Source: Amycolatopsis sp. QT-25
GTDB taxonomy: Bacteria; Actinomycetota; Actinomycetes; Mycobacteriales; Pseudonocardiaceae
Direction: 5' to 3'
DNA length: 64,000 nt
Assembly: GCF_029369745.1 (NCBI RefSeq)
Contig: NZ_CP120210.1
Location: 5,890,001 to 5,954,000 of the forward strand
Shown here piece after piece: positions 5,715 to 62,601 of this stretch; within the stretch, counting starts at the first letter, position 1, and the number at the start of each line of letters is the position of its first letter. A program made the translations under genes and the position numbers. The notes under the pieces are model-generated. The model saw nothing but the letters and a program-made list of their open reading frames with translations. It was not told the origin of the DNA and did no database searches.

Positions 5715-5767
5715 TCCGTGAAGGCCTCCTTGAGGGACTCTGGGTCCCTCAAGGAGGCCTTCACGGA
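5715..5767. repeat. Perfect inverted repeat, class A (24-bp arms), convergent intergenic
   Basis: Left arm 5715-5738 and right arm 5744-5767 are exact reverse complements around a 5-base loop. The core is TGAAGGCCTCC-TTGAGGGAC. It lies between convergent stops at 5687 and 5863, so it probably acts as a bidirectional terminator. The same core recurs at 62545-62601 and, interrupted by an insertion sequence, at 56802-58110. Confidence 0.9.
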
Positions 5768-5862
5768 TCAACGATCGGCAGGACACGCCCTTGGGAGCCG
5801 ATCGTGAGGTGGTTTCGACACCGGCGTGATCGGCTCCCGACGTCAGTCCGCCCCCTGAGGCG

Positions 5863-7980
5863 TCACTCCGCCGCGGTGCTCACCGTGAACGGCAGCCACT
5901 GCACGGTGACCCCGTTCGCCGGGGAGACCGGCATCCGCCAGTTCTGGCAGCCGCGACCGGGGATCCGGTCCCAGATGAACAGCGGTGTTCCCTGGACCGC
6001 GGTGCAGCCCTGATCCAGCAGCTTGCCCGCGTTCTGGACGGCGTACCGGTACACCCCCGTGCCGACCGTCTGCGGTTCGATCGTCCACTTCTGGCACGCG
6101 CCCGCGACCCGGTCGTAGGTGGTCACCGGGTTCCCGCCAGCCGTATGGCAGCCGGTGTTGTCCAAGACCTGCCCGGAATGCTTGGCACGGAACTGGTAGA
6201 AGCCGTCACCGGTGCCCCACGGGAAGAACTTCTGGCAGTCCGCGCCGTTCGACGGCCACTGCTGCACCTTGGTCCCGTTGTTCCAGCCGCACGCGGCGAC
6301 ATCGGCGTAGAGCCCGCTCGACACCGCCTGCAGGGAGACCCAGGCGTCGTCGCCGAACTCCTCACCGGGGTCGAACGTGGTGGCCCGGAACCGGTAGCTG
6401 TGGTTTTCCCGCAACAGTCCCGGCGGCACCGTCCAGGTCGCGGCGGTACCGGAGGGAACGTTCCACTGCCAGTAGTCCCCGATCATCGTTTCGCCTTCAT
6501 AGACGTAGAAAACCGCTGTGACGCTGCCGCCGTCGGGGTCCGTCGGCGTGAAGCGCAGCGTCGGGGTGAGGGATTTCGTGTGGGTGACGCCGCCGATGTC
6601 GACGCGGTCCGAGATGTCGTGCCCGGCGGCGGGATTCGGCCGCTGGTTCCGGTAGGTCACCTCGAGGTACGGTGACTTGCCGCCCTCGCCGGAGGAGAAC
6701 TTCTTCCAGCCGAAGGAATCCGACTCGTTCTCCGCCTTCAGCACCATCGATCCGGTGGTGACCCCCGAACCGGCCCAGGCACCGACCAGGTTCCCGATCG
6801 GGGTCCGGACCCAGTCGGCCGCACAGGCCACGCTGTAGCCGCGGGTCGCGTTCGTCGTCGCCCATCGCGTGCGGGGCGGCGGCTGGTTCGCCCAGCGAGT
6901 GCCCGTGTCGGCGGGCGACGAGTCCCAGATCTCCCAGTTGCGCGGTGAGCAGGAGTAGGAATGGTTGCCCCACAACGACAACGTGGCCGACTCGATCGCG
7001 GCGCCGCGGAACCGCGCCACGTCGAAGTGGAGATACGACCGGGCTTTCGTGGCTCCCCCGTCGTAGGTGCCGATGCGGAGTTCGGTGGCACCGGACTGGT
7101 CGGTGGCCGCGATGTTCGACTGCGTGAAGGTGTCGAAGTTCGTCCACACCGAGACACCCGGATCGACGATCACCGGATAGGACCGCGCCGGGTCGGCGAA
7201 GTACCCCGCGTCCGGCGCCACGTTCAGGCCGAGCGTTCCGCGTTCCTTGGCGGACACCACTTTCCCGACCTTCACCTTCGCGACGGGGTCGCCGCTGCGC
7301 TGGTCGATGCGCGAGTCCCACATCTCGGCGGCGGGCACGCTGCCCACCACCGCGCCGGACGCCGTGACCAGCTGGGTGTTCCCGTCCGCGTCGGTACGCG
7401 GCGTGAGCCCGGTGGCCCGCAGCGGGAGCGTGAACTTCAGCGCGCGATCGGGACGGCGCTTGACGACGAAGAACTGTTCGAAGCCGGTCCGCGTGGCCTC
7501 GACCCGCAGGTCGACGCCGGGCTGGACCTCCGGATAGGTGGCCGTCTCGCCGGCCAGCACCGGTTCGGGCAGGGCGCCGGGGTACCGCAGGGCGACCTTG
7601 CCGTCCCGGCTCTGCACGGTGGCGAGATCCCCGCTCCCGGCGCTCGCGCCGGCCAGCACGAGTTCGCGTGGATGCGCCTTCGGCCGGATGAGCCCGTCCG
7701 CGCTCTTCTCCAGCGTCAGGTCGACAGGCACCCAGTCGCCACCCCGGCGGACGTGCACCGGACCTCCGTGCACCCGGGTGGTGCGGGAGCCGTCGGGATT
7801 GGCGAACGTGACCGAGTTCTCGGTGCGTTCCGAGCGCATCTCGACCGGTTCGTGCCGCGAACGCGCCACGGTTTCGGGCGACGTCGCTTGCGCCGGGGCG
7901 GTGAACACGGCGGTCCCGGCCAGGCAAGCGGCGAGAAGCACGAGGCCCCGCCGCGGATTTCTTCGAATTTCGGCTTGCAC
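5863..7980 (-). CDS. Secreted DNRLRE-domain protein with C-terminal ricin-like region
   Basis: 705 residues from GTG 7980 (GGGGAGA ribosome site). A Sec signal peptide is clear: RRNPRRG, a hydrophobic run LVLLAACLAGTAVF, then AQA-T cleavage near residue 32. Residues about 50-270 resemble the beta-rich leader that precedes RHS/YD-repeat proteins. Residues about 280-460 form a DNRLRE-type module (WTNFDTFTQS, ELRIGTYDGG, RSYLHFDV). A short fibronectin-like segment follows. The last 130 residues have ricin/carbohydrate-binding character, with repeated Cys and QKW/QNW motifs. No RHS repeats or toxin domain follow, so this looks like a free-standing exoprotein or the front part of such a system. 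Confidence 0.75.
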   Translation of the reverse strand: MQAEIRRNPRRGLVLLAACLAGTAVFTAPAQATSPETVARSRHEPVEMRSERTENSVTFANPDGSRTTRVHGGPVHVRRGGDWVPVDLTLEKSADGLIRPKAHPRELVLAGASAGSGDLATVQSRDGKVALRYPGALPEPVLAGETATYPEVQPGVDLRVEATRTGFEQFFVVKRRPDRALKFTLPLRATGLTPRTDADGNTQLVTASGAVVGSVPAAEMWDSRIDQRSGDPVAKVKVGKVVSAKERGTLGLNVAPDAGYFADPARSYPVIVDPGVSVWTNFDTFTQSNIAATDQSGATELRIGTYDGGATKARSYLHFDVARFRGAAIESATLSLWGNHSYSCSPRNWEIWDSSPADTGTRWANQPPPRTRWATTNATRGYSVACAADWVRTPIGNLVGAWAGSGVTTGSMVLKAENESDSFGWKKFSSGEGGKSPYLEVTYRNQRPNPAAGHDISDRVDIGGVTHTKSLTPTLRFTPTDPDGGSVTAVFYVYEGETMIGDYWQWNVPSGTAATWTVPPGLLRENHSYRFRATTFDPGEEFGDDAWVSLQAVSSGLYADVAACGWNNGTKVQQWPSNGADCQKFFPWGTGDGFYQFRAKHSGQVLDNTGCHTAGGNPVTTYDRVAGACQKWTIEPQTVGTGVYRYAVQNAGKLLDQGCTAVQGTPLFIWDRIPGRGCQNWRMPVSPANGVTVQWLPFTVSTAAE

Positions 7981-8087
7981 TTCGGTCTCCCCAGCTGGTG
8001 GATGAAGTTGACATGTGGCTTACGCATGTCACACCACGAGGGTTGCCCGCCGCTCGAAAAAATCCGGCCGCGTGAGAAGGTGGCGGT

Positions 8088-8264
8088 ATGGCCAAACCGA
8101 CGCCGCTGCAGATCAGGAACATCGTCATGGCACTGCTCATGGCGGGTGCCCTGGTGTGGAACCTGTCCATCGGCGGCGCGGTGTGGCTCACCGCGATCTT
8201 CTCGGCCGGGATCGTCCTCTCACTGTTCTCCGCGTATCTGAACCGGCCCGGCGCGCGCTCCTGA
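8088..8264 (+). CDS. Small two-helix membrane protein
   Basis: 58-residue protein starting ATG GCC AAA CCG, with a GAGAAGG-like ribosome site. Two hydrophobic segments (about residues 11-28 and 31-50) are separated by a short turn (NLSIGG); basic residues sit at both ends. GC at third codon positions is very high, supporting real coding. No family function is recognised. It is divergent from the secreted protein gene and ends 10 bases before the convergent allantoicase stop. Confidence 0.7.
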   Translation: MAKPTPLQIRNIVMALLMAGALVWNLSIGGAVWLTAIFSAGIVLSLFSAYLNRPGARS

Positions 8265-8273
8265 CCCCGCGTT

Positions 8274-9290
8274 TCAAGAACGCGCGGCCTCGAAGCGCGA
8301 CGCAAGGTCAGCGTGGCCTCGATCGGTCAGCGCGCCGAAGAGACGCAGGCGCGCCATCCCGCCGTCGGGGTAGATGTCGAGCCGGACCTCGGTCACCTCG
8401 GGCCCCGGGTCGAGCGCGAACCGGTGCCGGGTGTCCGGTTGCAGACGCGTCTTCGGCAGCAGCTCGGTCCATGCGCCGTCACCGTCCCGGCCGCGCAGCG
8501 CCGCCCAACCCGGCGCGTTGCCCTTGAGGTTGCTGTTGTCCAGTTCGGCGAACCGGACGACACCCGCGCCGGCGAGCCGCACCGTGACCCAGTCGTTCCC
8601 GTCGTCCCGGCGCCGCGCGGTCTCCCAGCCTTCGGCCTGATGCGCGGCGAGCCCTGGCGAGAAGAGGTTGCCGGGCGAGGAATAGAACATGTCGCTGCAT
8701 CCGGTGACCACCGCGCCGTTCTCCAGCGCGGCGAGGTCGAGGGCACCGCGATCGAGCAGGCGAGGGTCCGGGATCGGCGTGCCGTGCACGCGCAGCCGGG
8801 CCACGCCACCGTCCGGGTGCATGGTCAGCCGGACGTGCGTGTAGCGCTTGCTCCCGCCGATCTCGAAGAAGTTCTCCGTGTGCCCCGCCGCCGCGCCGCG
8901 GTTCACCAGCACGTCCCAGTCCATTCCGGACAGTTCGGCGGCGCTGGGATAGCCGTCGACGGCGCACGCCTCCACCGAGACGAACGGCGGGTAGTTGCCC
9001 TTGAAGAACGCGGTGTCCACGATGACGCCGGCGATCGCTCCCGCCAGGCCGAGCCGGACGACGGCCTGGTCGTCGCCGGGCTCGCGGTGCCGCCGGGTCT
9101 CCCAGCCGTCGTAGACCTGCCCCTTGGGCCCGAAGGTCTCCGTCCGGTGCACGGGTACCCAGGGGTTGACCAGGTTCTCCTTCTCGGCGAACAACTCGTC
9201 CGTCGCCCACATCACGGTCCCGCCGAACCTGCGCGAGGCCAGATCGGGCCGGGCTGTCCACTCAGGACGGTCCGTCACGGCATCCTCCAT
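8274..9290 (-). CDS. alc: Allantoicase
   Basis: 338 residues. Hydrolyses allantoate to ureidoglycolate and urea in purine catabolism. Two tandem allantoicase (jelly-roll) repeats are visible: residues about 15-165 ([30 protein letters not shown]) and 190-335 ([47 protein letters not shown]). ATG 9290 has AGGAG upstream; an alternative GTG at 9278 has GGAGG upstream and would overlap the allB stop as GTGA. Either way it is translationally coupled to allB. Confidence 0.93.
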
Positions 9291-10621
9291 CTCAGCTCCT
9301 CTCCCCGGGTCAGCAGAACGCCTGCCGGGTCTTCGCCGGTGATCTCCTCACCGCGCAGCCAGGTGCTCCGGACGACACCGGCGAGCGGCCGTCCGTGGTA
9401 GGCGCTGACCGGGTTGCGGTGCTTCAACTTCGCGACGTCGACGACGAAGGCCTCGTCGGGGGCGAACACGCTGAAATCGGCGTCATAGCCCGGAGCGAGG
9501 TGACCTTTGCGGCGCAGGCCCGCCTGCGCGGCCGGATGCCCGGCCATCCAGCGGACGACGTCGGTGAGGGCGAATCCACGCTGCCGCGCCTGGGTCCAGA
9601 CGGCGGGCAGACCGAGTTGCAGACCGGCGATCCCACCCCAGGCGAGTCCGAAATCGCCGCTGTCGAAGCGTTTCAGCTCCGGGGTGCACGGCGAATGGTC
9701 GGTCACCACGCAGTCGATGACGCCGTCGGCGAGGCCCTGCCACAGCAGTTCACGGTTCTCGGCCTCGCGGATCGGCGGGCAGCACTTGAACTGCGTGGCG
9801 CCGTCGCCGATCTCCTCCGCGGTGAAACTCAGGTAGTGCGGGCAGGTCTCGGCGGTCAGCCGGACGCCGTCGCGCCGCGCGCTCTCGACCATCGGCAGCG
9901 CGTCCGAAGAGGACAGGTGCAGGATGTGCGCGCGCACACCGGTCTTCCTCGCCAGCTCGATGACCTGCGCGATCGCCACGTTCTCCGCACCGCGTGGACG
10001 CGAGCGCAGGAAGTCGCCGTACTTCTCGCCGTGCGGGTCGGGCGCGTGCTCGATCGCGTCGGAGTCCTCCGCGTGCACGATGATCATGCCGTCGAAGGTC
10101 CGCAGTTCGGTCATCGCCTCTTCGAGTCCTCGCGCGTCCAGCGGCGGGAACTCGTCGACACCGGAATGCAGCAGGAAGGACTTGAAACCGAACACCCCGG
10201 CCTCGTGCAGCCCGCGCAGCTCCGCGAGGTTGCCGGGAATCGCCCCACCCCAGAACCCGACGTCGACGTGCACCCGCCCCTCGGCGGTCTTGCGCTTCAC
10301 CTCCAGCGCCGCGACGTCGACCGTCGGCGGCAGGCTGTTCAACGGCATGTCCACGATCGTGGTCACCCCGCCGGCCGCCGCCGCGCGCGTCGCCGAGGCG
10401 AAACCCTCCCATTCGGTCCGGCCCGGATCGTTGACGTGCACATGGGTGTCCACGAGACCCGGCAGCAGGACGACGTCCTCGCCGAGTTCGAGCACCCGGT
10501 CGCCGTCCAGGGCGGCTCCGGCGGGCTCCACCGCGACGACGCGGCCCTCGTCGACACCGACGGTCGCGGGCACTTCCCCGGCAGCCGTCACCGCTCGCGC
10601 GGCCCTGATCACCAAGTCCAT
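9275..10621 (-). CDS. allB: Allantoinase
   Basis: 448-residue cyclic amidohydrolase that opens allantoin to allantoate. Binuclear-metal motifs are in order: DTHVHVN (about residue 58), the carbamylated-lysine stretch [31 protein letters not shown] and VVTDHSPC. First gene of the allB-alc operon. A 15-bp perfect palindrome lies 14 bases upstream of the start and is the likely operator. Confidence 0.95.
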
Positions 10622-10635
10622 CTAGAGCCTCCAAC

Positions 10636-10650
10636 TTCCACTCAGTGGAA
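10636..10650. promoter_or_regulatory. 15-bp palindrome, candidate IclR/AllR operator of allB-alc
   Basis: TTCCAC-TCA-GTGGAA is a perfect 15-bp inverted repeat between allB (minus) and the regulator gene at 10726 (plus). The same layout, TTCTGC-ATA-GCGGAA, occurs at 31171-31185 between malate synthase and the IclR gene. Confidence 0.6.
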
Positions 10651-10725
10651 TCGAGGTTTCGCACTCCGACATTAACTTCGGCCACCCCGCTCGTCAACGA
10701 GCCCTGGCGGCGCTACCTTCCTTGA

Positions 10726-11205
10726 GTGCAGTTGGAAGCCGAATTCACCAGCGAACCGTTCCACGGCGAGGGCCCGCCACCCGCGCATGCCGTCAAAGCC
10801 CGCGACACCGCGGAGGACGCGGGCCTGTCCACCGACTTCGGCCCGCTCGGCACCCTCGTCCGCGGCGACGCCGACGCCCTGCTCGACGCGCTCCCCGCCA
10901 TCGCCAGGGCGGCACTGGACGGCGGCGCGACCCGCGTGACCCTCCAGCTCCGCCAGGTCGGCGACGACCGGACCGAGCCGGCCGCCGAACTGCACAGCGC
11001 GCTGTCCCGGCTCATCGGCGACGTCGAACGCGAACTCGGCGGCAGACTCCACACCCTCGACCGCGCCGCCAAGCAGCGCGCGGTGCGACTGCTCAAGGAA
11101 CGCGGCGCGTTCGGCCTCCGCAAATCGGTGTCGACCGTCGCCGAGGCGCTGGGGGTCACGAGGTTCACGGTCTACAACTACCTCAACCGCGACCAAGACT
11201 GCTGA
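10726..11205 (+). CDS. MTH1187/thiamine-binding-like domain fused to a helix-turn-helix
   Basis: 159 residues from GTG 10726. The first ~75 residues (MQLEAEFTSEPF..., AARALDGGATRVTLQLRQ) resemble the small ferredoxin-like MTH1187/YkoF ligand-binding fold. The last ~45 residues are a helix-turn-helix (STVAEALGVTRFTVYNYLN). It sits between allB (divergent) and uraD (same strand), so a purine-ligand-sensing local regulator is the natural guess; the ligand is not known. There is no good ribosome site, so the message may be leaderless. Confidence 0.7.
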   Translation: MQLEAEFTSEPFHGEGPPPAHAVKARDTAEDAGLSTDFGPLGTLVRGDADALLDALPAIARAALDGGATRVTLQLRQVGDDRTEPAAELHSALSRLIGDVERELGGRLHTLDRAAKQRAVRLLKERGAFGLRKSVSTVAEALGVTRFTVYNYLNRDQDC

Positions 11206-11242
11206 AACATTCCCCAAGCATGGCTGTTTCAACAAAATGTTG
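11203..11242 (+). promoter_or_regulatory. Candidate operator of the uraD-uraH-urate oxidase operon
   Basis: Two overlapping inverted repeats lie just before uraD: TGAAACA (11203-11209) with TGTTTCA (11225-11231), and CAACA-AAA-TGTTG (11230-11242). The first begins inside the stop region of the regulator gene. Binding protein unknown; the adjacent HTH fusion protein is the first candidate. Confidence 0.5.
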
Positions 11243-11277
11243 ACGACGACGGAAGCGTCGCCGTACCGTCGGTTCCC

Positions 11278-11769
11278 GTGCCGCTCACCATTCGAGAGTT
11301 CAACGAGGCTCCCGCTCAGGACGTCCGGCCGGCGCTGACCGCCTGCCTCGACGTCCCGCGCTGGGTGGAAACCCTGCTGACCAGGCGCCCGTACGCCGAC
11401 GTCGCCGCCTTGCTCGCCACCGCCGAGGCGCTCACCCCGTTGCGTCCCGAAGAGGTCCGGCGCGCCATGTCCGCCCACCCCCGGATCGGGGAGAAAGCGG
11501 GGGGTGAGAGCACCGAAGCGGGCTGGTCACGCTCGGAACAGTCCGGTGTGGACGGTGACGCGGCGCGCGAATTCGCCGCCGCCAACGCCGAGTACGAGGC
11601 GACGTTCGGGCATGTCTTCCTGGTCCGCGCGAGCGGCCGGAGCGGCGCCGAACTACTGGAGAACCTGCGTTCGAGGCTCTCGAACGACCCCGAAGAGGAA
11701 CTCGAAGTGGCCGGCCGGGAGCTGGCCGGGATCGCCGCGCTGCGGCTGGAAAAGACGGTGACGGCATGA
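11278..11769 (+). CDS. uraD: 2-oxo-4-hydroxy-4-carboxy-5-ureidoimidazoline (OHCU) decarboxylase
   Basis: 163 residues from GTG 11278. Decarboxylates OHCU to S-allantoin, the third step of the uricolytic pathway. The catalytic-histidine motif HPRIGEK (about residues 66-72) and the C-terminal region (NAEYEATFGHVFLVRASGR) match the OHCU family. Ends in an ATGA overlap with uraH. First gene of a three-gene operon covering urate to allantoin. Confidence 0.95.
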   Translation: MPLTIREFNEAPAQDVRPALTACLDVPRWVETLLTRRPYADVAALLATAEALTPLRPEEVRRAMSAHPRIGEKAGGESTEAGWSRSEQSGVDGDAAREFAAANAEYEATFGHVFLVRASGRSGAELLENLRSRLSNDPEEELEVAGRELAGIAALRLEKTVTA

Positions 11770-12083
11770 GCCTCGTGACCACGCACGTCCTCGACACCGC
11801 CGCGGGACGCCCCGCGGCGGGCGTGGGAGTCCGCCTCGAAACCGGCGCGGGCGCACCCGTCGCCGAAGGCCGGACCGACGCCGACGGCCGGATCCGCGAC
11901 CTCGGCCCGGACACCCTGGGCCCCGGGGTCTACCGGCTGGTCTTCGACACCGGCGCCCACCTCGGCCCGGACTCCTTCTTCCCCGAAGTCACCCTGACCT
12001 TCCGCATCGCCGACGGGACCGAGCACCACCACGTGCCGCTGCTGCTGAGCCCGTTCGCCTATTCCACCTATCGAGGGAGCTGA
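11766..12083 (+). CDS. uraH: 5-hydroxyisourate hydrolase (transthyretin-like)
   Basis: 105 residues, typical length. Hydrolyses 5-hydroxyisourate to OHCU. Visible signatures are the N-terminal THVLDTAAGRPAAG, with the catalytic His, and the C-terminal YSTYRGS tetrapeptide region that distinguishes HIU hydrolases from transthyretin. Overlaps uraD by four bases (ATGA); six bases separate it from the urate oxidase start. Confidence 0.96.
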   Translation: MSLVTTHVLDTAAGRPAAGVGVRLETGAGAPVAEGRTDADGRIRDLGPDTLGPGVYRLVFDTGAHLGPDSFFPEVTLTFRIADGTEHHHVPLLLSPFAYSTYRGS

Positions 12084-12089
12084 TCGCCC

Positions 12090-14470: not shown

Positions 14471-14685
14471 CTTCTTCCCCCTTCTTCCTCGGTTTTGCAA
14501 CGGCTCACGACGCTAGGGCCGGGCACACCCGGCGAACATCGACCGCAGGTAGCGCCGGAAGGTGAACCAAGGATCGAGGGACGACTTGGACCGAGGCACG
14601 ACTCCCGCCATCCCGAGAACGCCGTGGTCGTCACCGCCGAGGCCGATGGTCACCAGCGTCAGCCCGGCTGACGTCCCCGGAATTG

Positions 14686-14701
14686 GATAGAACGCTCTAT
14701 C
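14686..14701. promoter_or_regulatory. GATAGA-N4-TCTATC operator for the adjacent TetR gene
   Basis: Inverted repeat GATAGA-ACGC-TCTATC ending 8 bases before the GTG start at 14710. It matches the style of LmrA/QdoR-type TetR boxes (tagaNNNNTCTA) and would place the repressor over its own promoter. Confidence 0.6.
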
Positions 14702-14709
14702 ATGGCTCC

Positions 14710-15285: not shown

Positions 15286-15301
15286 AGCACCGACTGCGAA
15301 C

Positions 15302-17139: not shown

Positions 17140-17146
17140 GCCTACT

Positions 17147-26564: not shown

Positions 26565-26619
26565 GTACATGAAGGCCCCCTTCCTTGCGCTAGACGCAAG
26601 GAAGGGGGCCTTCATGTAC
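26565..26619. repeat. Perfect inverted repeat, class B (25-bp arms)
   Basis: Arms 26565-26589 and 26595-26619 are exact complements around a 5-base loop (CTAGA). The core is TGAAGGCCCCC-TTCCTTGCG. It lies between the convergent GNAT and TetR genes; a sister copy is at 62155-62211. Likely bidirectional terminator. Confidence 0.9.
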
Positions 26620-26724: not shown

Positions 26725-26767
26725 TTTCGTGGAGAACCCCTTGGTCCCTCAAGGAGTCCTTCACGGA
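26725..26767. repeat. Decayed class A palindrome
   Basis: The right arm GGTCCCTCAAGGAG-TCCTTCACGGA (26743-26767) matches the class A arm with one mismatch; the left arm is degenerate (TTCGTGGAGAACCCCTT). Confidence 0.5.
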
Positions 26768-26891
26768 ACGACAACCCGAACCGTGCCCGCAAACGCCCCA
26801 CCCAGGTGACCACACCGGTCACGTCCGACAGCGTCGATTTCGGGTCACCCACCCGGTCCCGCCTCCAGAGAACGGAATGCGGAACACCGCC

Positions 26892-34328: not shown

Positions 34329-34371
34329 GCGAAGGCCCCTCTTTCGGCTGAGCCGGGAGAGGGGCCTTCGC
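34329..34371 (+). terminator. Hairpin after the MFS gene
   Basis: 14-bp perfect arms (34329-34342 and 34358-34371; GCGAAGGCCCCTCT type) around a 15-base loop that itself contains CGGC/GCCG. It begins 12 bases after the stop and shares the GAAGGCCCC...GGGGCCTTC design of the repeat family. Confidence 0.8.
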
Positions 34372-39329: not shown

Positions 39330-39342
39330 CCTCCCCCGAACG

Positions 39343-39393
39343 CTATGAAAGGTCCCTTCCTTGCAAATTTTGCAAGGAAGGGACCTTTCATAG
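39343..39393. repeat. Perfect inverted repeat, class C (25-bp arms, 1-base centre)
   Basis: Arms 39343-39367 and 39369-39393 are exact complements; core TGAAAGGTCCC-TTCCTTGCAAA. Fills the convergent gap between the symporter stop (39329) and the smc stop (39400). Near-identical copy at 44327-44379. Confidence 0.92.
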
Positions 39394-39399
39394 CACGCG

Positions 39400-43087: not shown

Positions 43088-43372
43088 TCAGCGCTCCACG
43101 AACCCGCGAAGCCCGCCTTTCGCCGGGGACCACCGTTCGACGTGATCCACACTTCCGGGTGATTCACCGGACCGCAAAGCCGCCAGCAGCCGCGCACAGT
43201 GGTCGCGAACACCCTCCGCTATCACCTCGACACGCCCGTCCGCCAGATTGGCCGCGCTGCCCGCCAACCCGAGTTCGAGCGCCCGGCTCCGGGTCCACCA
43301 GCGGAAACCGACACCCTGCACGCGGCCGTGCACCCACGCGGTCAGCCTGATGTGCGTTACTTCTTCACTCAC
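43088..43372 (-). CDS. acyP: Acylphosphatase
   Basis: 94 residues from GTG 43372; ATG 43381 adds three residues. Catalytic motif HGRVQGVGFRWWTR with the active-site Arg, and the Asn motif SAANLADGRVEV. Hydrolyses acyl phosphates. The acyP-smc order is shared with Mycobacterium and other actinobacteria. Confidence 0.93.
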   Translation of the reverse strand: MSEEVTHIRLTAWVHGRVQGVGFRWWTRSRALELGLAGSAANLADGRVEVIAEGVRDHCARLLAALRSGESPGSVDHVERWSPAKGGLRGFVER

Positions 43373-43537
43373 GTTCCCCATCGTGCACCATGCGGACGAA
43401 CGCGGAGGGTGAACACCACGTTCGCTGTGGTTCGCAGGCGGTTGAGCAGCGGTGATAATCTCCGCGCGGGTCCCCGCCCTGGCCACCACGCCCGGGTAGC
43501 CGAACTCCCCGAAGCCCCCCATCCGAGGAGCCAGCAC

Positions 43538-44188
43538 ATGTCCCGTCCCGACGGGTCTGATTCGAGCGCACGCGTGTCCGTGGCACCCCCGCGCGGCGCC
43601 ACCGGCAAGCTCAACCGCGCCGGCTACGCCGTACTCGGCGTCAGCGGCCTCGTGGTGGCGACGGCCTTCGCCGCGATCGCCGAACTCGCGGGGCCCGGCG
43701 TCTCCACCACCGCGGGCGGCACCGGCGTCTCCGGCGGCGGACAGGGCATCGCCCCCGCCGGCGTGCAGGTGGTCCCGGGGAACGCCGTCCCCGGCGGCCC
43801 GATGACCGTCAGCGGTTCACCGATCCCCGGCGCGTCTGCCAGCTCGGCGCCGCCGCCGACCACGGTGACCTCGGTCGGCCCGGACGGCAAGAAGACGACG
43901 AGCGTCGTCACGCCGCCCCCGCCGGTGGTGCCGCCGAACCCGGGCCCGAACCCGAACCCGGGCCCGGGCCCCGGCCCAGGCCCAGGCCCCACGCCAACGC
44001 CGAAGCCGACACCTACACCGACGAAAACGACGACTCCCACAACGACCACTCCGGCTACGACGCCCCCTCCGGAGCCGCCATCGAGCACCCCGAACGGCAG
44101 CTCCAGCCCCGGTGGCGCTCCCAGCGAGTCGTCCCCGGGCCGGTCCAGTACCTCGGGCACCGACACCTCCACGAGCAGCGCCCTGTAA
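43538..44188 (+). CDS. Membrane-anchored Pro/Thr/Gly-rich wall-spanning protein
   Basis: 216 residues from ATG 43538 (GAGGAG upstream). A short basic N-terminus precedes one hydrophobic helix (YAVLGVSGLVVATAFAAIAEL, residues about 30-50). The rest is low-complexity: Gly/Val, then PNPGPG repeats, then PTPTPT and TTTTPATT, ending in Ser/Thr. Probably a type II membrane protein whose tail crosses the cell wall and may be glycosylated. No catalytic domain. Ends just before a block of four hairpins. Confidence 0.75.
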   Translation: MSRPDGSDSSARVSVAPPRGATGKLNRAGYAVLGVSGLVVATAFAAIAELAGPGVSTTAGGTGVSGGGQGIAPAGVQVVPGNAVPGGPMTVSGSPIPGASASSAPPPTTVTSVGPDGKKTTSVVTPPPPVVPPNPGPNPNPGPGPGPGPGPTPTPKPTPTPTKTTTPTTTTPATTPPPEPPSSTPNGSSSPGGAPSESSPGRSSTSGTDTSTSSAL

Positions 44189-44199: not shown

Positions 44200-44246
44200 G
44201 TGAAGGCCTCTCGGAGGGACTCCGGGTCCCTCCGAGAGGCCTTCAC
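44200..44246. repeat. Perfect inverted repeat, class D (21-bp arms)
   Basis: Arms 44200-44220 and 44226-44246, loop TCCGG. Core GTGAAGGCCTCTCGGAGGGAC. First of four hairpins in the 312-base convergent gap before kdpE. Confidence 0.9.
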
Positions 44247-44283
44247 CACTTTGCGGCGCCCGGTGGACGGGAGGCCTCGGCGA

Positions 44284-44310
44284 GGGTCGCGAAAACCACT
44301 TTCGCGACCC
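44284..44310. repeat. 11-bp perfect hairpin
   Basis: GGGTCGCGAAA-ACCAC-TTTCGCGACCC. Second hairpin of the block; it has no TGAAGG ends, so it is not a family member by sequence. Confidence 0.8.
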
Positions 44311-44326
44311 GTTCCCCTCGCCACGC

Positions 44327-44379
44327 GCCATGAAAGGTCCTTTCCTTGCAAAATTTGCAAGGAAAGGACCTTTCATGGC
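44327..44379. repeat. Perfect inverted repeat, class C (26-bp arms, 1-base centre)
   Basis: Arms 44327-44352 and 44354-44379; core TGAAAGGTCC-TTTCCTTGCAAA. Differs from the copy at 39343 by a compensated base pair (CCC/GGG becoming CCT/AGG), so symmetry is kept. Confidence 0.92.
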
Positions 44380-44416
44380 GTCCCCCTGGGAGGGGTGGCG
44401 GCCGGATGCACCGGAT

Positions 44417-44468
44417 GTCATGAAGGGTCGTTCAGGACAAAGAGTGTCCCGAACGACCCTTTCATGAC
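44417..44468. repeat. Near-perfect inverted repeat, class E (about 23-bp arms)
   Basis: GTCATGAAGGGTCGTTC...GAACGACCC-TTTCATGAC with one mismatch and one single-base indel between arms. Last hairpin before the kdpE stop at 44501. Confidence 0.85.
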
Positions 44469-52519: not shown

Positions 52520-52592
52520 GGTGACATGCCCCACAGACGGTGACCCACTGCGGACGGAGCGTGCAATTCGGGCAGACAAGCCCGCCCCACCG

Positions 52593-52624: not shown

Positions 52625-52648
52625 CTAACTAATCATTGGGAGGTAGCG

Positions 52649-54481: not shown

Positions 54482-54487
54482 GCACCC

Positions 54488-54520
54488 GGTCCGCCGCCGT
54501 CTCGGCGACGGCGGCGGACC
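54488..54520. terminator. GC-rich terminator after asnB
   Basis: 14-bp perfect stem GGTCCGCCGCCGTC / GACGGCGGCGGACC with a TCGGC loop, starting 7 bases after the asnB stop. No U-tract, as usual in actinobacteria. It lies in a convergent gap and could serve both sides. Confidence 0.85.
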
Positions 54521-54652
54521 ACCGCCTGAGCGCACGCGTTCTTCCCCCGGCGTGGCCGGGTCCGGGCCGATGGAGCGCATCGGCTCGGCGTGATGCGGCC
54601 TCAGGAGGAGCCAGGCGATCGAAGCCGCGAAGGACACCGCGGCCGTGCCTTT

Positions 54653-55441: not shown

Positions 55442-55450
55442 CGTTCTCCC

Positions 55451-56314: not shown

Positions 56315-56706
56315 GCCGTCCGCTCCCCTCGAAAGCCATCGACCACCACCGAGGTGAACAACGCCTCGACGTCTTCCTGATCCAGCCCCGATTCCCGCGC
56401 GTCGCGGACCCAGGCGCCGAGACTCTTCCGCAAGCGCGTGCGCTCCGCGAACGAAGCGCCTCCGAGCGTCTTCCGGACGAAGGTGCCGAGACCCGGCTTC
56501 CCTTCGACGAGCCCTTCGCGCTCCAGCTCGCGGTACGCCTTGAGGACGGTGTTGGGATTGATCGCCAGCTCGGCGACCACTTCCTTCGCCGTCGGCAGCC
56601 GGTCCCCCGGCTCCAGCAGTTCCAGGCGGAGGGCGTTCTTGACCTGCTGGACGAGCTGGACGTACGTCGCGACGCCCGAGCCCTTGTCCAAGTGGAAGCT
56701 GACCAC
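56311..56706 (-). CDS. GntR-family repressor, YtrA subfamily
   Basis: 131 residues from GTG 56706, chosen because AAAGGG sits at ideal distance; GTG 56715 would lie inside the operator with no ribosome site. Winged HTH: GDRLPTAKEVVAELAINPNTVLKAYRELEREGLVEGKPGLGTFV. A short C-terminal two-helix dimerisation tail defines YtrA. Autoregulates its ABC operon through the 13-bp-arm palindrome that overlaps its start region. Confidence 0.9.
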   Translation of the reverse strand: MVSFHLDKGSGVATYVQLVQQVKNALRLELLEPGDRLPTAKEVVAELAINPNTVLKAYRELEREGLVEGKPGLGTFVRKTLGGASFAERTRLRKSLGAWVRDARESGLDQEDVEALFTSVVVDGFRGERTA

Positions 56707-56712
56707 CGGCAA

Positions 56713-56744
56713 CACCCTTTCACTAATTAAGTAGTGAAAGGGTG
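56713..56744. promoter_or_regulatory. Operator of the GntR/ABC operon
   Basis: Perfect 13-bp arms CACCCTTTCACTA-ATTAAG-TAGTGAAAGGGTG. AT-rich centre gives a -10-like TACTTAAT on the minus strand; position over promoter and start fits YtrA autorepression. Confidence 0.75.
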
Positions 56745-56814
56745 CAGGCAGGTGGCCGCCCCTGTCAAGCGATCAAGGTGTTCGTCGTGAACGCCGAAAA
56801 GCCGCGAAGGCCTC

Positions 56815-58068
56815 TCGGAGTCATGGGGTTGTTGCAACACCGTCTGATGGGGGGTGGGGTTGTGGTGCGGGTTCATCGGTGGTTGCCGCGGTCGGTGCGG
56901 GTGGAGTTTTGGGAGCGGGTCCGGGCCGGGCTGGCGGCGAAGCCGGCGGCCCGGGCGGTGGGGCTGTCCCCGACGACGGGGGTGCGGTTGTTCCGGCAGG
57001 CTGGCGGGGTGATCGGTAACGCACCTGCTCGGCCTGGTCCCCTCCGGTTGAGCCTGGCCGAGCGGGAAGAGATCGCCTGCCTGAAAGCCGCGGGCCAGGG
57101 GCCCCGGGCGATCGGGCGGGCGATCGCCCGGCCGGCCTCGACCGTGTCCCGCGAGCTGGCCCGCAACACCGGTTCCTCCGGCCGCTATCGGGCTGTCAGC
57201 GCGCAGCACACGGCCGAGAACCGTGCGAAACGCCCGAAGGCCGCGAAACTGGCCGCGGACACCGTGTTGCGGGACGTGGTGCAGGACAGGCTGAACCGTA
57301 AATGGTCCCCGCGTCAGATCGCGCGGAGACTGGTGCTGGAGTTCCCCGACCAGCCGGAGATGCGGGTGTCCCACGAAACGATCTACCAAGCACTGTATGT
57401 CCAGGGAAAAGGCGCGCTGCGCCGCGAACTCACCCAGGCGTTGCGGACCGGGCGGGCACTGCGGATGCCCCGCCGGCAGGCCCAGGCCCGCCGGGCCCGG
57501 CCCGCGGGCAGGATCCCCGACATGGTCAACATCTCCGAACGGCCCGCCGAGGCCGCCGACCGCGCCGTCCCCGGGCATTGGGAAGGCGACCTGATCCTGG
57601 GCAAGAACAACAAATCCGCGATCGGGACCCTGGTCGAACGATCGACCCGGTTCGTGATGCTGCTGCACCTGCCCCACGGACGCGACGCCGCCACCGTCGC
57701 TCACGCCATGACCGAGACCATCCAGACGCTGCCGCCGCTGCTGCTGAAATCCTTGACCTGGGACCAGGGCAAGGAAATGGCCCACCACAAAAAGATCACC
57801 CTGGCCACCGGGATCGACATCTACTTCTGCGACCCACACGCACCCTGGCAACGCGGAACCAACGAGAACACCAACGGCCTACTCCGCCAATACTTCCCCA
57901 CAAGCACCGACCTGTCCCAGCACACCGCCGCAGACCTCGCACGAGTCGCCGCCGAACTCAACGGCCGCCCCCGCGAAACCCTCGACTGGCACACACCCGC
58001 CGAAGCCCTCGAAGCACTACTCTCCAACCAACAAACAATGCGTGTTGCAACCACCATGTGAATCCGCC
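56815..58068 (+). mobile_element. IS30-family insertion sequence, about 1.25 kb
   Basis: Imperfect terminal inverted repeats: CGGAGTCATGGGG-TTGTTGCAACAC from 56816 and, from the other end, CGGATTCACATGG-TGGTTGCAACAC (58066 inward), 20 of 25 identical. One intact transposase. CCTC flanks both sides (56811-56814 and 58069-58072), a probable 3-4-bp target duplication. The exact outer base is uncertain by 1-2. Inserted within the left arm of a class A palindrome. Confidence 0.85.
56847..58061 (+). CDS. IS30-family transposase
   Basis: 404 residues from ATG 56847; ATG 56823 in the terminal repeat is an alternative. N-terminal HTH region (IARPASTVSRELARNTG), then the DDE catalytic core: GHWEGDLILGK (D), LTWDQGKEMAHH (D) and GTNENTNGLLRQYFP (E). 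No frameshift or stop, so it appears intact and possibly active. Basic N-terminal DNA-binding region. Stop lies 5 bases inside the right end. Confidence 0.93.
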   Translation: MGGGVVVRVHRWLPRSVRVEFWERVRAGLAAKPAARAVGLSPTTGVRLFRQAGGVIGNAPARPGPLRLSLAEREEIACLKAAGQGPRAIGRAIARPASTVSRELARNTGSSGRYRAVSAQHTAENRAKRPKAAKLAADTVLRDVVQDRLNRKWSPRQIARRLVLEFPDQPEMRVSHETIYQALYVQGKGALRRELTQALRTGRALRMPRRQAQARRARPAGRIPDMVNISERPAEAADRAVPGHWEGDLILGKNNKSAIGTLVERSTRFVMLLHLPHGRDAATVAHAMTETIQTLPPLLLKSLTWDQGKEMAHHKKITLATGIDIYFCDPHAPWQRGTNENTNGLLRQYFPTSTDLSQHTAADLARVAAELNGRPRETLDWHTPAEALEALLSNQQTMRVATTM

Positions 58069-58331
58069 CCTCCTTGAGGGACTTTGAGTCCTTTAAGGAG
58101 GCCTTCGCGGAAATCCCAACCCAGTCAAGAAGAAGCGCCAGTCCGACACAGGGGGAAGACGTCGAGCTGGCACTACCCCCAACCCCCACCGCCGTCGGAG
58201 GGCGGTGCCTGTGCGAGGTACAGGTGTCCACCGTCGTACCGGAACCGAATGGGGGGTCCTGCCCGTCTTGTTGGTTGGGCACGGTTCCGGCGACGGGTCC
58301 TCGGTGGACACAGGCAAGGATCACGCGGGCC

Positions 58332-58360
58332 GGATGCAGGGCGCTTGCACTACGCTTGCA
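58332..58360 (+). promoter_or_regulatory. SARP-type direct repeats upstream of the SARP gene
   Basis: GCTTGCA-CTAC-GCTTGCA (58343-58349, 58354-58360), preceded at the same 11-base step by a weaker GGATGCA (58332-58338). Heptamers with 4-base spacers are the SARP binding layout. The site ends 31 bases before the gene start, suggesting autoregulation. The remaining gap from 58111 shows only a small CACCGCC/GGCGGTG hairpin near 58187-58207. Confidence 0.6.
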
Positions 58361-58391
58361 GGCTCCGGCGAGGGTGAGCGGAGGTGGCCGG

Positions 58392-61370
58392 GTGGAGTTC
58401 CGCGTCCTCGGCGCCGTCGAGGCGTGGGCCGGTGGCGATCCGGTCGATCTCGGCTCGCCCAAACAACGACTCGTGCTGGCGGTTCTGCTGCTGGAGGCGG
58501 GCAGACCGGTACCGCGCGAACGGATCATCGACCTGCTCTGGCCGGAAGAACCGCCCGCCAGTGCGCGGAACACCGTTCAAGCGCTGGTGTCCAGGCTTCG
58601 CGCCGTGTTCCGCTGCGCGGGCGGGCCGGAGATCGTCTCCGAGGGGACCCGGTACCTGCTCAAGGTCGACCCGCACCAGGTCGACCTGCACCGCTTCACC
58701 GAGCTGACCGCGCAAGCCCGCGACGCCGACGACGAGACCGCCGTGAACCTCCTGGACGAGGCGCTCGGCCTGTGGCGCGGCGAGGCGTTGTCCGACGTGG
58801 TGAGCGGCGAGGTCGCCCAGCGGCTTCGCGGCGGCATCACCGAGGAACGCTGGACGGCACTGGAGGATCGGGCCGAAGCGCGGCTGCGGCTCGGCCGCGG
58901 CAGGCAGGTCCTCGCGGAGCTGACCGAACTGGTCGCCGCGCATCCCCTGCGGCAGCGGTTCGTCGGGCAGCTCATGCTCGCGCTGCACCGTGAAGGACGC
59001 ACCGACGACGCCCTCGAGGCTTTCCGCGCCTTGAGGAACCGGCTGGGCACCGAACTGGGTCTCGATCCTTCCCCGGAGCTGCGGCGGCTGGAATCCGCGA
59101 TCCTCGGTGCCGATCCCGCCCTCGAACCCCCGGCCGGGCCCGAGCCGGTCCGCCCGGCGCAGCTGCCGCACGACGTCCGGGGATTCGCCGGGCGGGTGGC
59201 GGAGCTGGAGCGGCTCGACGAGGCGACCCGCCACCCGGCCGGGGGCACCGACATCTGGGTGATCAGCGGCACCGCCGGTGTCGGCAAGACCGCGCTCGCG
59301 GTCCGCTGGGCCCACCGCGTCCGCGACGCGTTCCCCGACGGCCAGCTGTACCTCGACCTGCGCGGTTTCGACCCCGATCACGAACCACTCACCCCTGCCG
59401 TCGCGCTCACCCGGCTCCTGCAGGCACTCGGCACCGCACCCAAGGCCATTCCGCCGGACACCGACACGCGCGCCGCCCTGCTCCGGTCGCTCCTCGCCGA
59501 CGAACGGGTCCTCCTCGTCCTCGACAACGTGCGCGACACCGGCCAGGTACTGCCGTTGCTGCCGCCGTCCGGCACCGTCCTGGTCACCAGCCGCCAGCGG
59601 CTCGGCGACCTCATCGCCCGCACCGGCGCCCGTGCGCTCCCGCTGTCCGTGCTGCCCGCCGAAGACGCGCGGCATCTCCTGGAAGCCGTACTCGGCAGCG
59701 AAACCGTCGCCGCCGAGGCCGTCGCGGCCGCGGAACTGGCGCGGCTGTGCGGGCACCTCCCGCTCGCCCTCCGGATCGCGGCGGCCAACCTCGGTGCCAG
59801 TGGCGAACCCGAGATCGCCGAACTCGCCCGGGAACTCGCCGGTGGCGACCCGCTGGCGGAGCTGACCGTCGACGGTGCCGAGGAAAGCGCCGTGACCACG
59901 GCGTTCGGCGTCTCCTACCGGACGCTTCCCGAAGAGCACCGGCGGCTGTTCCGCCGGCTCGCGCTCGTTCCGGGCCAGACGTTCACCGCCCCCGCCGCCC
60001 AGGCGCTGACCGGCGTCCCGCCCTCGAAGGCGAACCAGCAGCTCAAGGCGCTCGCGGCGGCGCATCTCGTCGAGCGCTACACCACTGGGCGCTACCGGTT
60101 CCACGATCTCCTCCGCAGTTTCGCGGCGGGGCGCACCCTGGCGGAGGACGCGAAACCCGAACGCGACGCCGCGGCGAGGCGGCTTTTCGAGAGCTACCTG
60201 GCCACCGCCGACGCCGCGGGCCGCACCCTCATCCCGCACTTCCTGCGGCTGCCCCGCGAGGAACCGGCGGACGCACCCTTCGCCGACACCGAAGAGGCGC
60301 TGGCGTGGCTGGACGCCGAATGGCCGAACCTCGCCGCCGCCGTCGAGCACAGCGCCGAACACGGCCCGCCCGAGTTCTCCTGGCACCTCGCCGACGCGCT
60401 CCGCGCCTTCTTCCACCAGCGCGGTCATCACGCGGAGTGGATCGACACGGCATCGACCGCGCTCAAGGCCGCCCGCCGCGGCGGGGCCGGGCAGGCGCAG
60501 GCGGCGATGCACCTGAGCATCGCGCTCGCCTGCGTCAACAGCGGCCGCTACGACGAAGCACGCGAACACCTCACCAACGCTTTGCGTGGAGACCTCCTCG
60601 CCGGCTGGGACGCCGGCCGCGCGGCCGTGCTCAACAACCTGAGCGCGGTGCACCAGCGCCTCGGTGACCCGCAGGAGGCGATCCGCTGCGGGCTGGAATC
60701 CCTGCGACTGTGCGAAGAACTGAACATGCCCGCCGTCTCGATGGCACTGGCGAACCTCGGTTTCCCGTACTGGCAAACAGGTCAGCTCGACGAGGCACTC
60801 ACCCATTTCACCCGCGCGCTCGAGGTCGCCGAACGGGACGGCGCCCGGTTCAGCGTCGCGGTGCTGCTGGTCGACCTCGGCACCGTGCACCGCGACCTAG
60901 GTCTCCTCGACGACGCCTACGACTTCTACACCCGCGCGCTCGCGGCCAACCGCGAACTGGGTTACCCCTACGGCGAGGCGACCGCGCTGTCCGGCAGGGC
61001 CGTACTCGAAAGCAGGCGGGATCCGAGCGAGCAGAACCGCACGGACGCGCTCGAAGCCGTCGAACTGACGCGCAAGATCGGCGACCGGGGCACCGAGGCC
61101 TGGACGCTCGCCGGACTCGGCGAGGTCTGCCTGCGGCTCGGCCTGCCCGACGAGGCCGCCGAGCACTACCGGCTCGCGTTGTCGATCGCGCGGACGACGA
61201 GCTTCTTCTGGTGCGAGGCCGCCGCCCGGACCGGACTCGCGGAAACGCTGCTGCGACTGGGAAAACTCACGGAAGCCCGGACACACGGCGAATTGGCCCA
61301 GGAACTCGCCGCCCGCTCCGGTTACCGGCTCGTCGAGGAACGCGCGAACCAGATCCTGGACGAGCTCTAG
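58392..61370 (+). CDS. AfsR/SARP-family regulator (SARP-NB-ARC-TPR)
   Basis: 992 residues from GTG 58392 (GGAGG seven bases upstream). Domains in order: OmpR-like winged helix (EFRVLGAVEAW...SPKQRLVLAVLLLEAGRPV, 1-90), bacterial transcriptional activator domain (90-240), NB-ARC STAND ATPase with P-loop GTAGVGKTALAVRW (about 295-308) and Walker B-like VLLVLDNV, then C-terminal TPR repeats (about 660-990). A large-form SARP of AfsR type; such proteins activate secondary metabolism or development. No biosynthetic cluster is adjacent in the window. Confidence 0.93.
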   Translation: MEFRVLGAVEAWAGGDPVDLGSPKQRLVLAVLLLEAGRPVPRERIIDLLWPEEPPASARNTVQALVSRLRAVFRCAGGPEIVSEGTRYLLKVDPHQVDLHRFTELTAQARDADDETAVNLLDEALGLWRGEALSDVVSGEVAQRLRGGITEERWTALEDRAEARLRLGRGRQVLAELTELVAAHPLRQRFVGQLMLALHREGRTDDALEAFRALRNRLGTELGLDPSPELRRLESAILGADPALEPPAGPEPVRPAQLPHDVRGFAGRVAELERLDEATRHPAGGTDIWVISGTAGVGKTALAVRWAHRVRDAFPDGQLYLDLRGFDPDHEPLTPAVALTRLLQALGTAPKAIPPDTDTRAALLRSLLADERVLLVLDNVRDTGQVLPLLPPSGTVLVTSRQRLGDLIARTGARALPLSVLPAEDARHLLEAVLGSETVAAEAVAAAELARLCGHLPLALRIAAANLGASGEPEIAELARELAGGDPLAELTVDGAEESAVTTAFGVSYRTLPEEHRRLFRRLALVPGQTFTAPAAQALTGVPPSKANQQLKALAAAHLVERYTTGRYRFHDLLRSFAAGRTLAEDAKPERDAAARRLFESYLATADAAGRTLIPHFLRLPREEPADAPFADTEEALAWLDAEWPNLAAAVEHSAEHGPPEFSWHLADALRAFFHQRGHHAEWIDTASTALKAARRGGAGQAQAAMHLSIALACVNSGRYDEAREHLTNALRGDLLAGWDAGRAAVLNNLSAVHQRLGDPQEAIRCGLESLRLCEELNMPAVSMALANLGFPYWQTGQLDEALTHFTRALEVAERDGARFSVAVLLVDLGTVHRDLGLLDDAYDFYTRALAANRELGYPYGEATALSGRAVLESRRDPSEQNRTDALEAVELTRKIGDRGTEAWTLAGLGEVCLRLGLPDEAAEHYRLALSIARTTSFFWCEAAARTGLAETLLRLGKLTEARTHGELAQELAARSGYRLVEERANQILDEL

Positions 61371-61909
61371 CTTCTCCCGCCCTGTGACTTCACGCTGCCG
61401 GCGATCGCCGCCGCGACCGCTGTCAGGGCACCGAAAATGATCATCAGCGCGATCGCGGTGCTGTCCTGGTCGTCGAAGCTGAAGAGCCACCTGAGCTGAG
61501 CACCGAGGGGCGTGGCCGACAGCAGCGGCGTCCCGACGAAGACCGCCACCACGGAGAACACGCAAAGCGCGAACAGCGTCCACGCGCCGGGAATCCGGCG
61601 AGCGAACGTGAAGCCCGCGGCCACCACCAGCGATCCCGCGGAGAGGAGGCCGAAGGCCGCGTTCTGCGCCATCAAGCCCGTCCAGCGGCTGCCCGGCTCG
61701 TTGGCGTACCAGACGTTGTAGAGCGCGAACCAGACGAGCAGGCCGGCGGTGAGCACCGCCAGGACGCCGGCGATCATCGCCGCCACGGCGTTCGCCCTCG
61801 GTTTGGGCGCCACCTGGCCCGGCCCGGCCGGATGCTGCCCGTACCGGGGGAAACCGGGCTGCGGTGGGTTGAGTTGCGGTGGATTGGGCTGCGGTGGATT
61901 GGGCTGCAT
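61367..61909 (-). CDS. Four-helix membrane protein with Pro/Asn-rich N-terminus
   Basis: 180 residues. The first ~30 residues repeat NPPQ(P/L), followed by a short linker and four hydrophobic segments (about 42-64, 83-102, 112-132, 155-173). No family function recognised. Stop codon shares CTAG with the SARP gene stop. The N-terminal repeat is encoded by GGATTGGGCTGCGGT units. Confidence 0.75.
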   Translation of the reverse strand: MQPNPPQPNPPQLNPPQPGFPRYGQHPAGPGQVAPKPRANAVAAMIAGVLAVLTAGLLVWFALYNVWYANEPGSRWTGLMAQNAAFGLLSAGSLVVAAGFTFARRIPGAWTLFALCVFSVVAVFVGTPLLSATPLGAQLRWLFSFDDQDSTAIALMIIFGALTAVAAAIAGSVKSQGGRS

Positions 61910-62154
61910 CCGTACTCCTCGCGCGTCCGGCGACCCGAACCGGCCGCCTGTCCTGGTTCGTGGTCACCGTAGCCAAAGGTGCCTCCTGGTGTCCGGTCTT
62001 GGCAGCAAGCTGCCTTCGCACGCCAGCGGCCGGGAGGGTGCCGGGCGGTCGAAGGGAACTTTCTTCGCATCGGATGCAGGGAAGTCCCCTTCACCGCAGC
62101 CAACCGGATCCTGGCCGCGGCCGGTCGCAGCCCCTCCATCTTCACACCTTCTCA

Positions 62155-62211
62155 AGTACGTGAAGGCCCCCTTCCTGTACATAGGCGCAAGGAAGGGGGC
62201 CTTCACGTACT
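62155..62211. repeat. Inverted repeat, class B (21-bp arms, 15-base loop)
   Basis: Arms 62155-62175 and 62191-62211 are exact complements: AGTACGTGAAGG...CCTTCACGTACT with GGCCCCCTTCC core. The loop contains one half (GCGCAA) of the inner arm seen intact at 26565. Confidence 0.88.
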
Positions 62212-62440
62212 CCGCAACCACCGGCAGACCCTCGTGAGTGTTCATCGAGGGGGTGAGGCAAAGGTGTCAGGCCGTCGAAGCTTTGCATGGCCCGATCACC
62301 GGGGTCCGGCGTCCCCATGACGTCCACAAAGGACGTGTTATGCCGAGGCCGTTCTGAGCTATGCGCACTGCGTTGATGAGGTAAGTCGACCTGTCGCGTG
62401 TAGGGCGTGGTCGCCTACATAGGCAGTCCGCTGGTCGCGG

Positions 62441-62479
62441 ATGCCTCCTTGCCTACCCTGCAGGCAGGAAGGGAGGCAT
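62441..62479. repeat. Imperfect hairpin ATGCCTCC...GGAGGCAT
   Basis: Outer 8 bp pair perfectly; the inner arms TTGCCT and AGGCAGGAAG pair with a 4-base bulge. Related in design to the family but lacking TGAAGG. Confidence 0.55.
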
Positions 62480-62544
62480 TCGCTACCTTCACGCGTGTTC
62501 CCTGGTGACAGCGGGACGACTGTGACGCCAGCACCGGGTCTCGA

Positions 62545-62601
62545 AGTCCGTGAAGGCCTCCTTGAGGGACCCAGGGTCCCTCAAGGAGGCCTTCACGGAC
62601 T
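62545..62601. repeat. Perfect inverted repeat, class A (28-bp arms, 1-base centre)
   Basis: Arms 62545-62572 and 62574-62601. Longest perfect palindrome in the window; the outer 24 bp match the copy at 5715 base for base. Confidence 0.92.

Follow-up and report, generated by a model that had tools for sequence, protein, structure and literature searches.

A family of 45-nt gene-end hairpins in Amycolatopsis sp. QT-25 and its probable homogenisation by copying between loci

The 64,000-nt stretch of Amycolatopsis sp. QT-25 analysed here (the window; bases 5,890,001-5,954,000 of the 8.01-Mb single-contig genome G000, whose smc protein shares 88% identity with its counterparts in two named Amycolatopsis species) carries seven perfect palindromes whose exact arms measure 21-28 nt and are separated by 1, 5 or 13 nt, together with altered copies of the same kind, one of them interrupted by a transposase gene (Table 1). 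A sequence-only reading had proposed that these palindromes form a family, and all seven of its perfect copies were found. They are real and not a product of chance, in line with the excess over chance hairpins on which that proposal depends: when the window was shuffled five times by mononucleotide within 1 kb, 0-1 arms reached 12 nt and none reached 14 nt. For eight window copies the predicted folding energies are -37 to -60 kcal/mol, with z values of -8 to -13. The near-perfect copy at 44417 proved to be the same element with one left-arm base missing, the decayed copy noticed at 26725 resembles, by eye, the right half of a class S element, and the copies at 39342 and 44326 (39343 and 44327 in the earlier description) do differ by one compensated base pair, C-G versus T-A. 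The copy described as split by an insertion sequence is indeed interrupted by a transposase gene, but the split is not a clean one, as the gene is situated within the outer left arm and both inner arms survive in the right remnant.

The length of the element is locked. Among TGAA..TTCA palindromes spanning 26-75 nt in 864 kb of G000 and four relatives, the distance from TGAA to TTCA is exactly 45 nt in 39 of 49, a regularity that goes beyond what had been noticed before. Both TGAAAGG copies in the window conform to it as well, and the 44417 copy measures 44 nt. The layout is TGAAGG, NNN, CCTTN, a centre and the mirror image of these, and the small dyad TGAAGG-N3-CCTTC often lies inside the arm itself. 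Analyses of flanks, context and tags used 78 elements from 1,585 kb of six genomes. In this sample, inverted symmetry continues outside TGAA for about five bases (0.94, 0.85, 0.81, 0.77 and 0.53, against 0.37-0.56 expected) and then ceases. Hence the outer ends are constant, as had been claimed, with respect to TGAA(N)GG, but not with respect to the next 4-5 nt outward, which are usually paired and vary with class. These outer bases mostly track the core: TCCG goes with the TTGAGGGAC core (class S), GCYA with the TTGCAAA core (class C) and GTAC with the TTCCTTGCG core (class P). Mosaic elements also exist, for example a P core and P right flank joined to a C-type left flank.

Table 1. Hairpin elements and the transposase gene in the window (positions counted from its first base)
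Feature	Position	Strand	Remarks
Class S element (TCCG, then TGAAGGCCTCC-TTGAGGGAC)	5715..5767		exact arms 24 nt, loop 5, span 45 nt; genes either side called convergent
Class P element (GTACA, then TGAAGGCCCCC-TTCCTTGCG)	26565..26619		exact arms 25 nt; flanked by convergent GNAT and TetR genes
Decayed S-class remnant, right half retained	26728..26768		judged by eye
Variant with CGAAGG ends and CGGCTGAGCC core (G-like)	34329..34371		perfect arms 14 nt
Class C element (GCTA, then TGAAAGGTCCC-TTCCTTGC)	39342..39394		exact arms 26 nt; convergent SSF transporter and smc genes end 12 and 5 nt away
S-type variant core (TCTCGGAGGGAC)	44200..44246		exact arms 21 nt; T-class core at same spot in G031, G019 and G014
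Class C element (CGCCA, then TGAAAGGTCCT-TTCCTTGC)	44326..44380		exact arms 27 nt
Near-perfect element (TGAAGGGTCGTTCAGGAC)	44417..44468		44 nt through 1-nt deletion in left arm; G031 counterpart 45 nt
Left remnant of interrupted element (CGAAGGCCTC)	56802..56820		sequence
Transposase gene, HTH_38 and rve domains (presumably IS30-type)	56895..58061	+	within the element's outer left arm
Right remnant of interrupted element, both inner arms retained	58066..58110		sequence
Asymmetric class P element (inner arms CTGTAC and TTGCG)	62155..62211		exact outer arms 22 nt, loop 13
Class S element	62545..62601		exact arms 28 nt, loop 1

The family is dispersed over the whole genome. The pattern TGAAGG-N33-CCTTCA, with the shared ends that the sequence-only reading expected, occurs 232 times in G000, and its reversed form, which served as control, does not occur. 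Seventy-nine other genomes of the genus hold 0-515 copies (control 0-4), with at least 100 in 28 and at most 5 in 24; all of the closest 18 relatives (smc DNA 92-96% identical) carry 174-404. A restriction to the genus is ruled out by copies in other genera: a survey of 297 genomes of the family sampled 45 other genera with 271 genomes, and 13 of these genera have at least 10 matches in at least one genome (control 0-2); a named Prauserella locus (L007) holds a perfect 45-nt element. Distribution is patchy between siblings, with 138 copies in one g281 species (G728) and 0-2 in its siblings. Across the rest of the phylum (395 genomes outside the family) there are 0-5 pattern matches per genome, and those among them that were listed look, by eye, like non-palindromic coding sequence. 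Of 16 loci obtained by searching 15 high-copy genomes, 15 are palindromic (at most 6 mismatches in 20 pairs) and 11 lie between genes called convergent by a gene model trained on G000. Arm bases 7-11 are species-specific: GAACA or GCCCC in G033, GAACC in G071, CCACC in G063, ACGCC or CGTCC in G622 and, in class S of G000, CCTCC. Arms of at least 18 nt number 55-63 per Mb in the stretches examined of G000, 118 in G031, 60 in G014 and 50 in G070. At loci around smc, named Amycolatopsis and Prauserella have 4 in 94 kb (42 per Mb), other Actinobacteria 14 in 1,475 kb (9.5 per Mb), at least one of them a run of N, and eight other Pseudonocardiaceae loci none in 180 kb.

The position of the elements is biased towards gene ends. 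By our own gene calls, 38 of the 78 copies lie between convergent genes, where random intergenic placement predicts 14.3, and 34 lie between genes of the same direction (37.1 expected) and 6 between divergent genes (26.5 expected); neither the convergent excess nor the divergent deficit was matched in any of 2000 permutations. A stop codon is found within 100 nt of 46 copies, and no copy lies inside a called gene. The earlier statement that most copies sit between convergent genes is right in tendency and too strong in the window itself, where it applies to three of the seven perfect copies (5715, 26565 and 39342); the other four are called between same-direction genes, and gene calls there are weak. 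Opposite, overlapping frames at 43199-44188 (plus strand) and 43624-44160 (minus strand) have no Pfam hit, and the true gene at 43199-44188 decides whether the cluster at 44200-44468 sits between convergent genes.

Position, stability and two-way symmetry together point to bidirectional termination or 3'-end protection, and the elements are most likely U-tract-poor hairpin terminators working in both directions and protectors of 3' ends. This role fits the position data and is compatible with dispersal. No canonical U-tract terminator was called at the four palindromes at 39-45 kb; a U-poor bidirectional terminator is expected to be a stable hairpin close to stop codons and over-represented where genes converge, as these elements are. 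U-poor intrinsic terminators have been reported in high-GC actinobacteria, and the four palindromes are consistent with these as described in the available part of that source (PMC8269248).

We compared 364 junction pairs between G000 and five relatives and, in a second comparison, 249 junctions against G031, the closest relative. At 29 of 41 convergent junctions a palindrome is present in at least one of G000 and G031; G000 has a 45-nt element at 13 such junctions, and G031 is also palindromic at 11 of the 13. The class at a given place differs, however, between genomes: at junction B106 it is S in G000, GAAGGGCCCCTTTGAGACG in G031, GCGCGTGAAGGCCCCCTTCCCTC in G070 and GAAGGGCCCTTTCCCCGCAT in G014 and G020. 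The smc junction was readable at 29 of 30 loci, 18 of which belong to G000 and its close relatives. Among these 18, the class C element is found in six, in one of them truncated where the contig ends; three have a TCGTGAGTGG palindrome at that position and four have other or more distant palindromes, and the scan returned none in five. A core swapped with the outer ends kept is seen at window position 44200, and also, in an unrelated second palindrome family, at junction B 64.

Elements present in both G000 and G031 (18 orthologous pairs at 17 junctions) show coupled change of the two arms, since 56 arm-pair positions are altered on both sides with pairing kept and 26 are altered otherwise. 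These pairs differ at 8.7 of 45 positions on average. Neighbouring gene ends have a mean identity of 95% at 15 junctions outside the window region, and of 96% and 85% at two within it. Copies are probably swapped in place faster than the adjoining genes change. Replacement of a core or of a whole element would alter both arms together.

Furthermore, copies resemble others in their own genome. When both pools are set to 30 copies, a G000 element has its nearest match 1.8 differences away in G000 and 3.0 in G031, and a G031 element 2.1 away in G031 and 6.7 in G000; this comparison stands in place of one with unequal pools (33/36), which favours the larger pool. Dispersed hairpins at 31 junctions average 74% identity, against 91% for single-locus hairpins at nine junctions, a control defined by exact 14-mers in which junction 358 reaches only 70%. 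Class C copies with CGG(T/A)CCG or CGGTCCT make up 16 of 23 in G031 and 0 of 13 in G000, the same double transversions recurring at several G031 loci. Even irregular copies are multiplied: asymmetric class P elements, in which 4-5 pairs are mismatched, are found repeatedly in G000, G031 and G070, and one imperfect hairpin of G071 turns up in both orientations at several of the places listed for that genome. This own-genome likeness is most simply explained by copying between loci.

On balance we therefore favour, with reasonable though limited confidence, a single superfamily of dispersed hairpins that behave like repetitive extragenic palindromic (REP) sequences and bacterial interspersed mosaic elements (BIMEs), serve as bidirectional terminators and are homogenised by copying that needs no REP-associated tyrosine transposase (RAYT). 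The elements would sit near stop codons, chiefly between convergent genes, and end transcription both ways; copying within each genome would multiply them and keep them alike, and the core or the whole element at a junction would at times be replaced by another copy. Gene conversion or template switching between copies is our preferred route, and a guess: the hairpin may stall a replication fork or be cut at its tip, the repair then being templated by another copy through the shared outer arm. We favour it because RAYT and target duplications are lacking (see below) and cores are swapped with the outer ends kept.

Several observations weigh against this reading. At 45-57 bp, the homologous tracts are short by the standards of ordinary recombination, 32 of the 78 copies have no stop codon within 100 nt, and the 78 are not independent, coming as they do from six related genomes. 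A U-tract terminator scan of 39-45 kb lists none of the four palindromes there. Five of the 18 orthologous pairs differ at four positions or fewer, and as orthologous copies are closer than chance pairs (8.7 versus 15.6 differences), homogenisation is partial. Dialects are impure, with 3 AGGTCCT copies retained among the 23 class C copies of G031, and GAACGGTCC hairpins at two G000 junctions fail the strict TGAA..TTCA definition. Finally, the stretches examined of G019 have 8 arms of at least 18 nt per Mb, no more than other Actinobacteria, perhaps because the assembly is faulty at such sites. In that assembly (L121, L173-L179), N and duplicated or foreign-looking sequence occur at three palindromes, one of them of the TCGTGAGTGG family, and the sequence beside N at the smc site is presumably Illumina adapter. 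Long perfect hairpins may break short-read assemblies, so copy counts in draft genomes may be lower bounds.

A bolder version of the same idea is tentative, and we regard it as possible rather than probable. Here a RAYT-free system spanning the family would consist of a fixed 45-nt hairpin (15-nt dyad, 15-nt centre, 15-nt dyad) that homes into gene-end hairpins and rewrites their cores to the species dialect, so that the terminators of a genome would be exchanged as cassettes under a putative recognising factor.

The doubled 15-bp dyad at 30-bp spacing also makes a binding protein conceivable. The elements would then be paired sites, two dyads (TGAAGG-N3-CCTTCA) 30 bp or about three helical turns apart, read by a putative protein that binds DNA or hairpins, for example one that organises the chromosome, with species-dependent specificity. 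Of 47 box pairs less than 120 nt apart, 34 are spaced at exactly 30 nt, and TGAAGG and the 45-nt length persist as the interior changes. In two genomes of a sister genus (G606 C4 252999-253073 and G622 C1 532530-532604), boxes are chained at 30-nt steps such that adjacent hairpins share a box. However, any 45-nt element holding both boxes yields the 30-nt spacing by itself, the inner half-box is degenerate in several classes, two separate sites need no perfectly complementary centre, and divergent, promoter-bearing junctions are avoided. We thus consider this explanation unlikely.

Fresh insertion at gene ends of non-autonomous transposable elements, either like miniature inverted-repeat transposable elements (MITEs) or with hairpin ends, and moved by a DDE or other transposase, would account for the patchy bursts between sister species, for whole-unit copies in both orientations and for junctions at which close species carry different families. 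Yet no target-site duplication of 3-12 nt was found immediately beyond the symmetric part of any of the 78 copies, which rejects a MITE with target duplication; direct flanking repeats of 2 nt occur at five, the number expected by chance, and the flanks are inverted, not direct, repeats. Moreover, several sites keep the outer flank and differ only in the core, and plasmid, phage and viral collections, queried with the class S sequence alone, gave no match. Such insertion seems quite improbable.

Of the mobile dispersal suggested by the sequence-only reading, the REP-like copying stands, given scattered identical and asymmetric copies, species-specific amplification and own-genome likeness; its MITE form does not, and neither does its RAYT-driven form. 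REP elements of the classical kind, which a RAYT (Y1 tyrosine) transposase moves or once moved, share with our elements the high copy number, the palindromic and extragenic nature and the occasional paired composites. However, a Y1_Tnp profile search, positive in 5 of 14 control genomes, gave no hit in G000 and, in a set of 22 relatives that includes 16 high-copy genomes, a single partial hit (G661), with none in 15 of the 16 high-copy genomes. The tags are not enriched either: GTAG lies within 14 nt outside 6 of the 78 copies and at 30-44 nt from 7, and CGTC within 14 nt of 15 and at 30-44 nt from 25. We give a RAYT origin very little credence. Equally hard to credit are ordinary intrinsic terminators evolving in place without copying, by point mutation and compensation: these would explain the gene-end position and the compensated changes that single-locus hairpins do show (junction B 111), but as sole cause they are refuted by identical 45-nt copies at many loci and repeated asymmetric copies, and are opposed by the recurrent double transversions in G031 and the 91% mean identity of single-locus hairpins at equal divergence.

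Other palindromes accompany the 45-nt elements. Within the window, 44284-44310 holds a copy of a different family (GTCGCGAAAACCACTTTCGCGAC), with related hairpins (GCGAAAGCCACTTTCGC) in G031, G019, G070, G014 and G020, and a separate palindrome, CACCCTTTCACTAATTAAGTAGTGAAAGGGTG, occupies 56713-56744, with a reverse-strand gene on one side and the transposase insertion on the other. The hairpin at 54488-54520 is terminator-like in the ordinary sense and kept at the same spot in four relatives, which makes it a contrast case. No Rfam family was hit in the window at the gathering threshold. Further dispersed families with constant ends of their own (TCGTGAGTGG..CCACTCACGA, GTCCTCTGGATGCGGTACTTGC.., GGAGACGTAACTC.. 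and CCAATGTGGCATTGGG..) occur in G000 at 2,900,001-3,200,000 (L140-L154) and in relatives, and at some junctions one of them occupies the place of a relative's 45-nt element.

Among known systems, DNA uptake sequences are a short conserved motif that occurs at gene ends as inverted pairs and differs in dialect between species, and Kingsford is said to have described such pairs in 2007 as terminators in Neisseria and Haemophilus. Our elements are alike in these respects; unlike uptake sequences, their interior also pairs and is class-specific, and we know of no link to transformation in this family. Quasi-palindrome correction by template switching makes arms perfectly complementary, but it acts within one locus and alone gives no identical distant copies. 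With REP and BIME sequences, which fall into GTAG and CGTC superfamilies accompanied by RAYT, the elements share, going by the portion of PMC3733652 available, small size, extragenic position, copy numbers in the tens to hundreds, a division into several classes within one genome and composites. They differ in that the genome lacks a Y1 transposase, neither tag (GTAG or CGTC) is enriched, the length is locked at 45 nt and cores are swapped in place. Thus, although they are many, short, extragenic palindromes as REPs are, two features by which RAYT-linked REPs are defined are missing, and we do not file them as such despite their REP/BIME-like behaviour. Term-seq in S. clavuligerus revealed bidirectional and I-shaped (U-poor) intrinsic terminators; as far as the accessible text of PMC8269248 goes, these are likewise long, stable, short-loop hairpins at overlapping 3' ends of opposed genes, including a U-poor class, but they are individual sites, where ours are copies of a few families, scattered through the genome and made alike within each species. 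We found no description of the present hairpin family in the open-access literature searched, as far as the available portions of its papers go (among them PMC3733652, PMC12306157, PMC8269248 and PMC13155455); the main text of PMC3733652, in its available part, mentions neither Amycolatopsis nor Streptomyces nor 'actinobacter', and the accessible part of a Saccharopolyspora transcriptome paper (PMC3610266) contains nothing on such hairpins.

In summary, if copying between loci does homogenise these elements, the gene-end hairpins of a family rich in antibiotic producers would be a shared, mobile and homogenised pool and not a set of slow local features. This would explain how the insulation of convergent genes persists as intergenic DNA turns over, and would provide a RAYT-independent case of REP-like spread. 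It would also supply engineering with a natural collection of strong terminators that work both ways.

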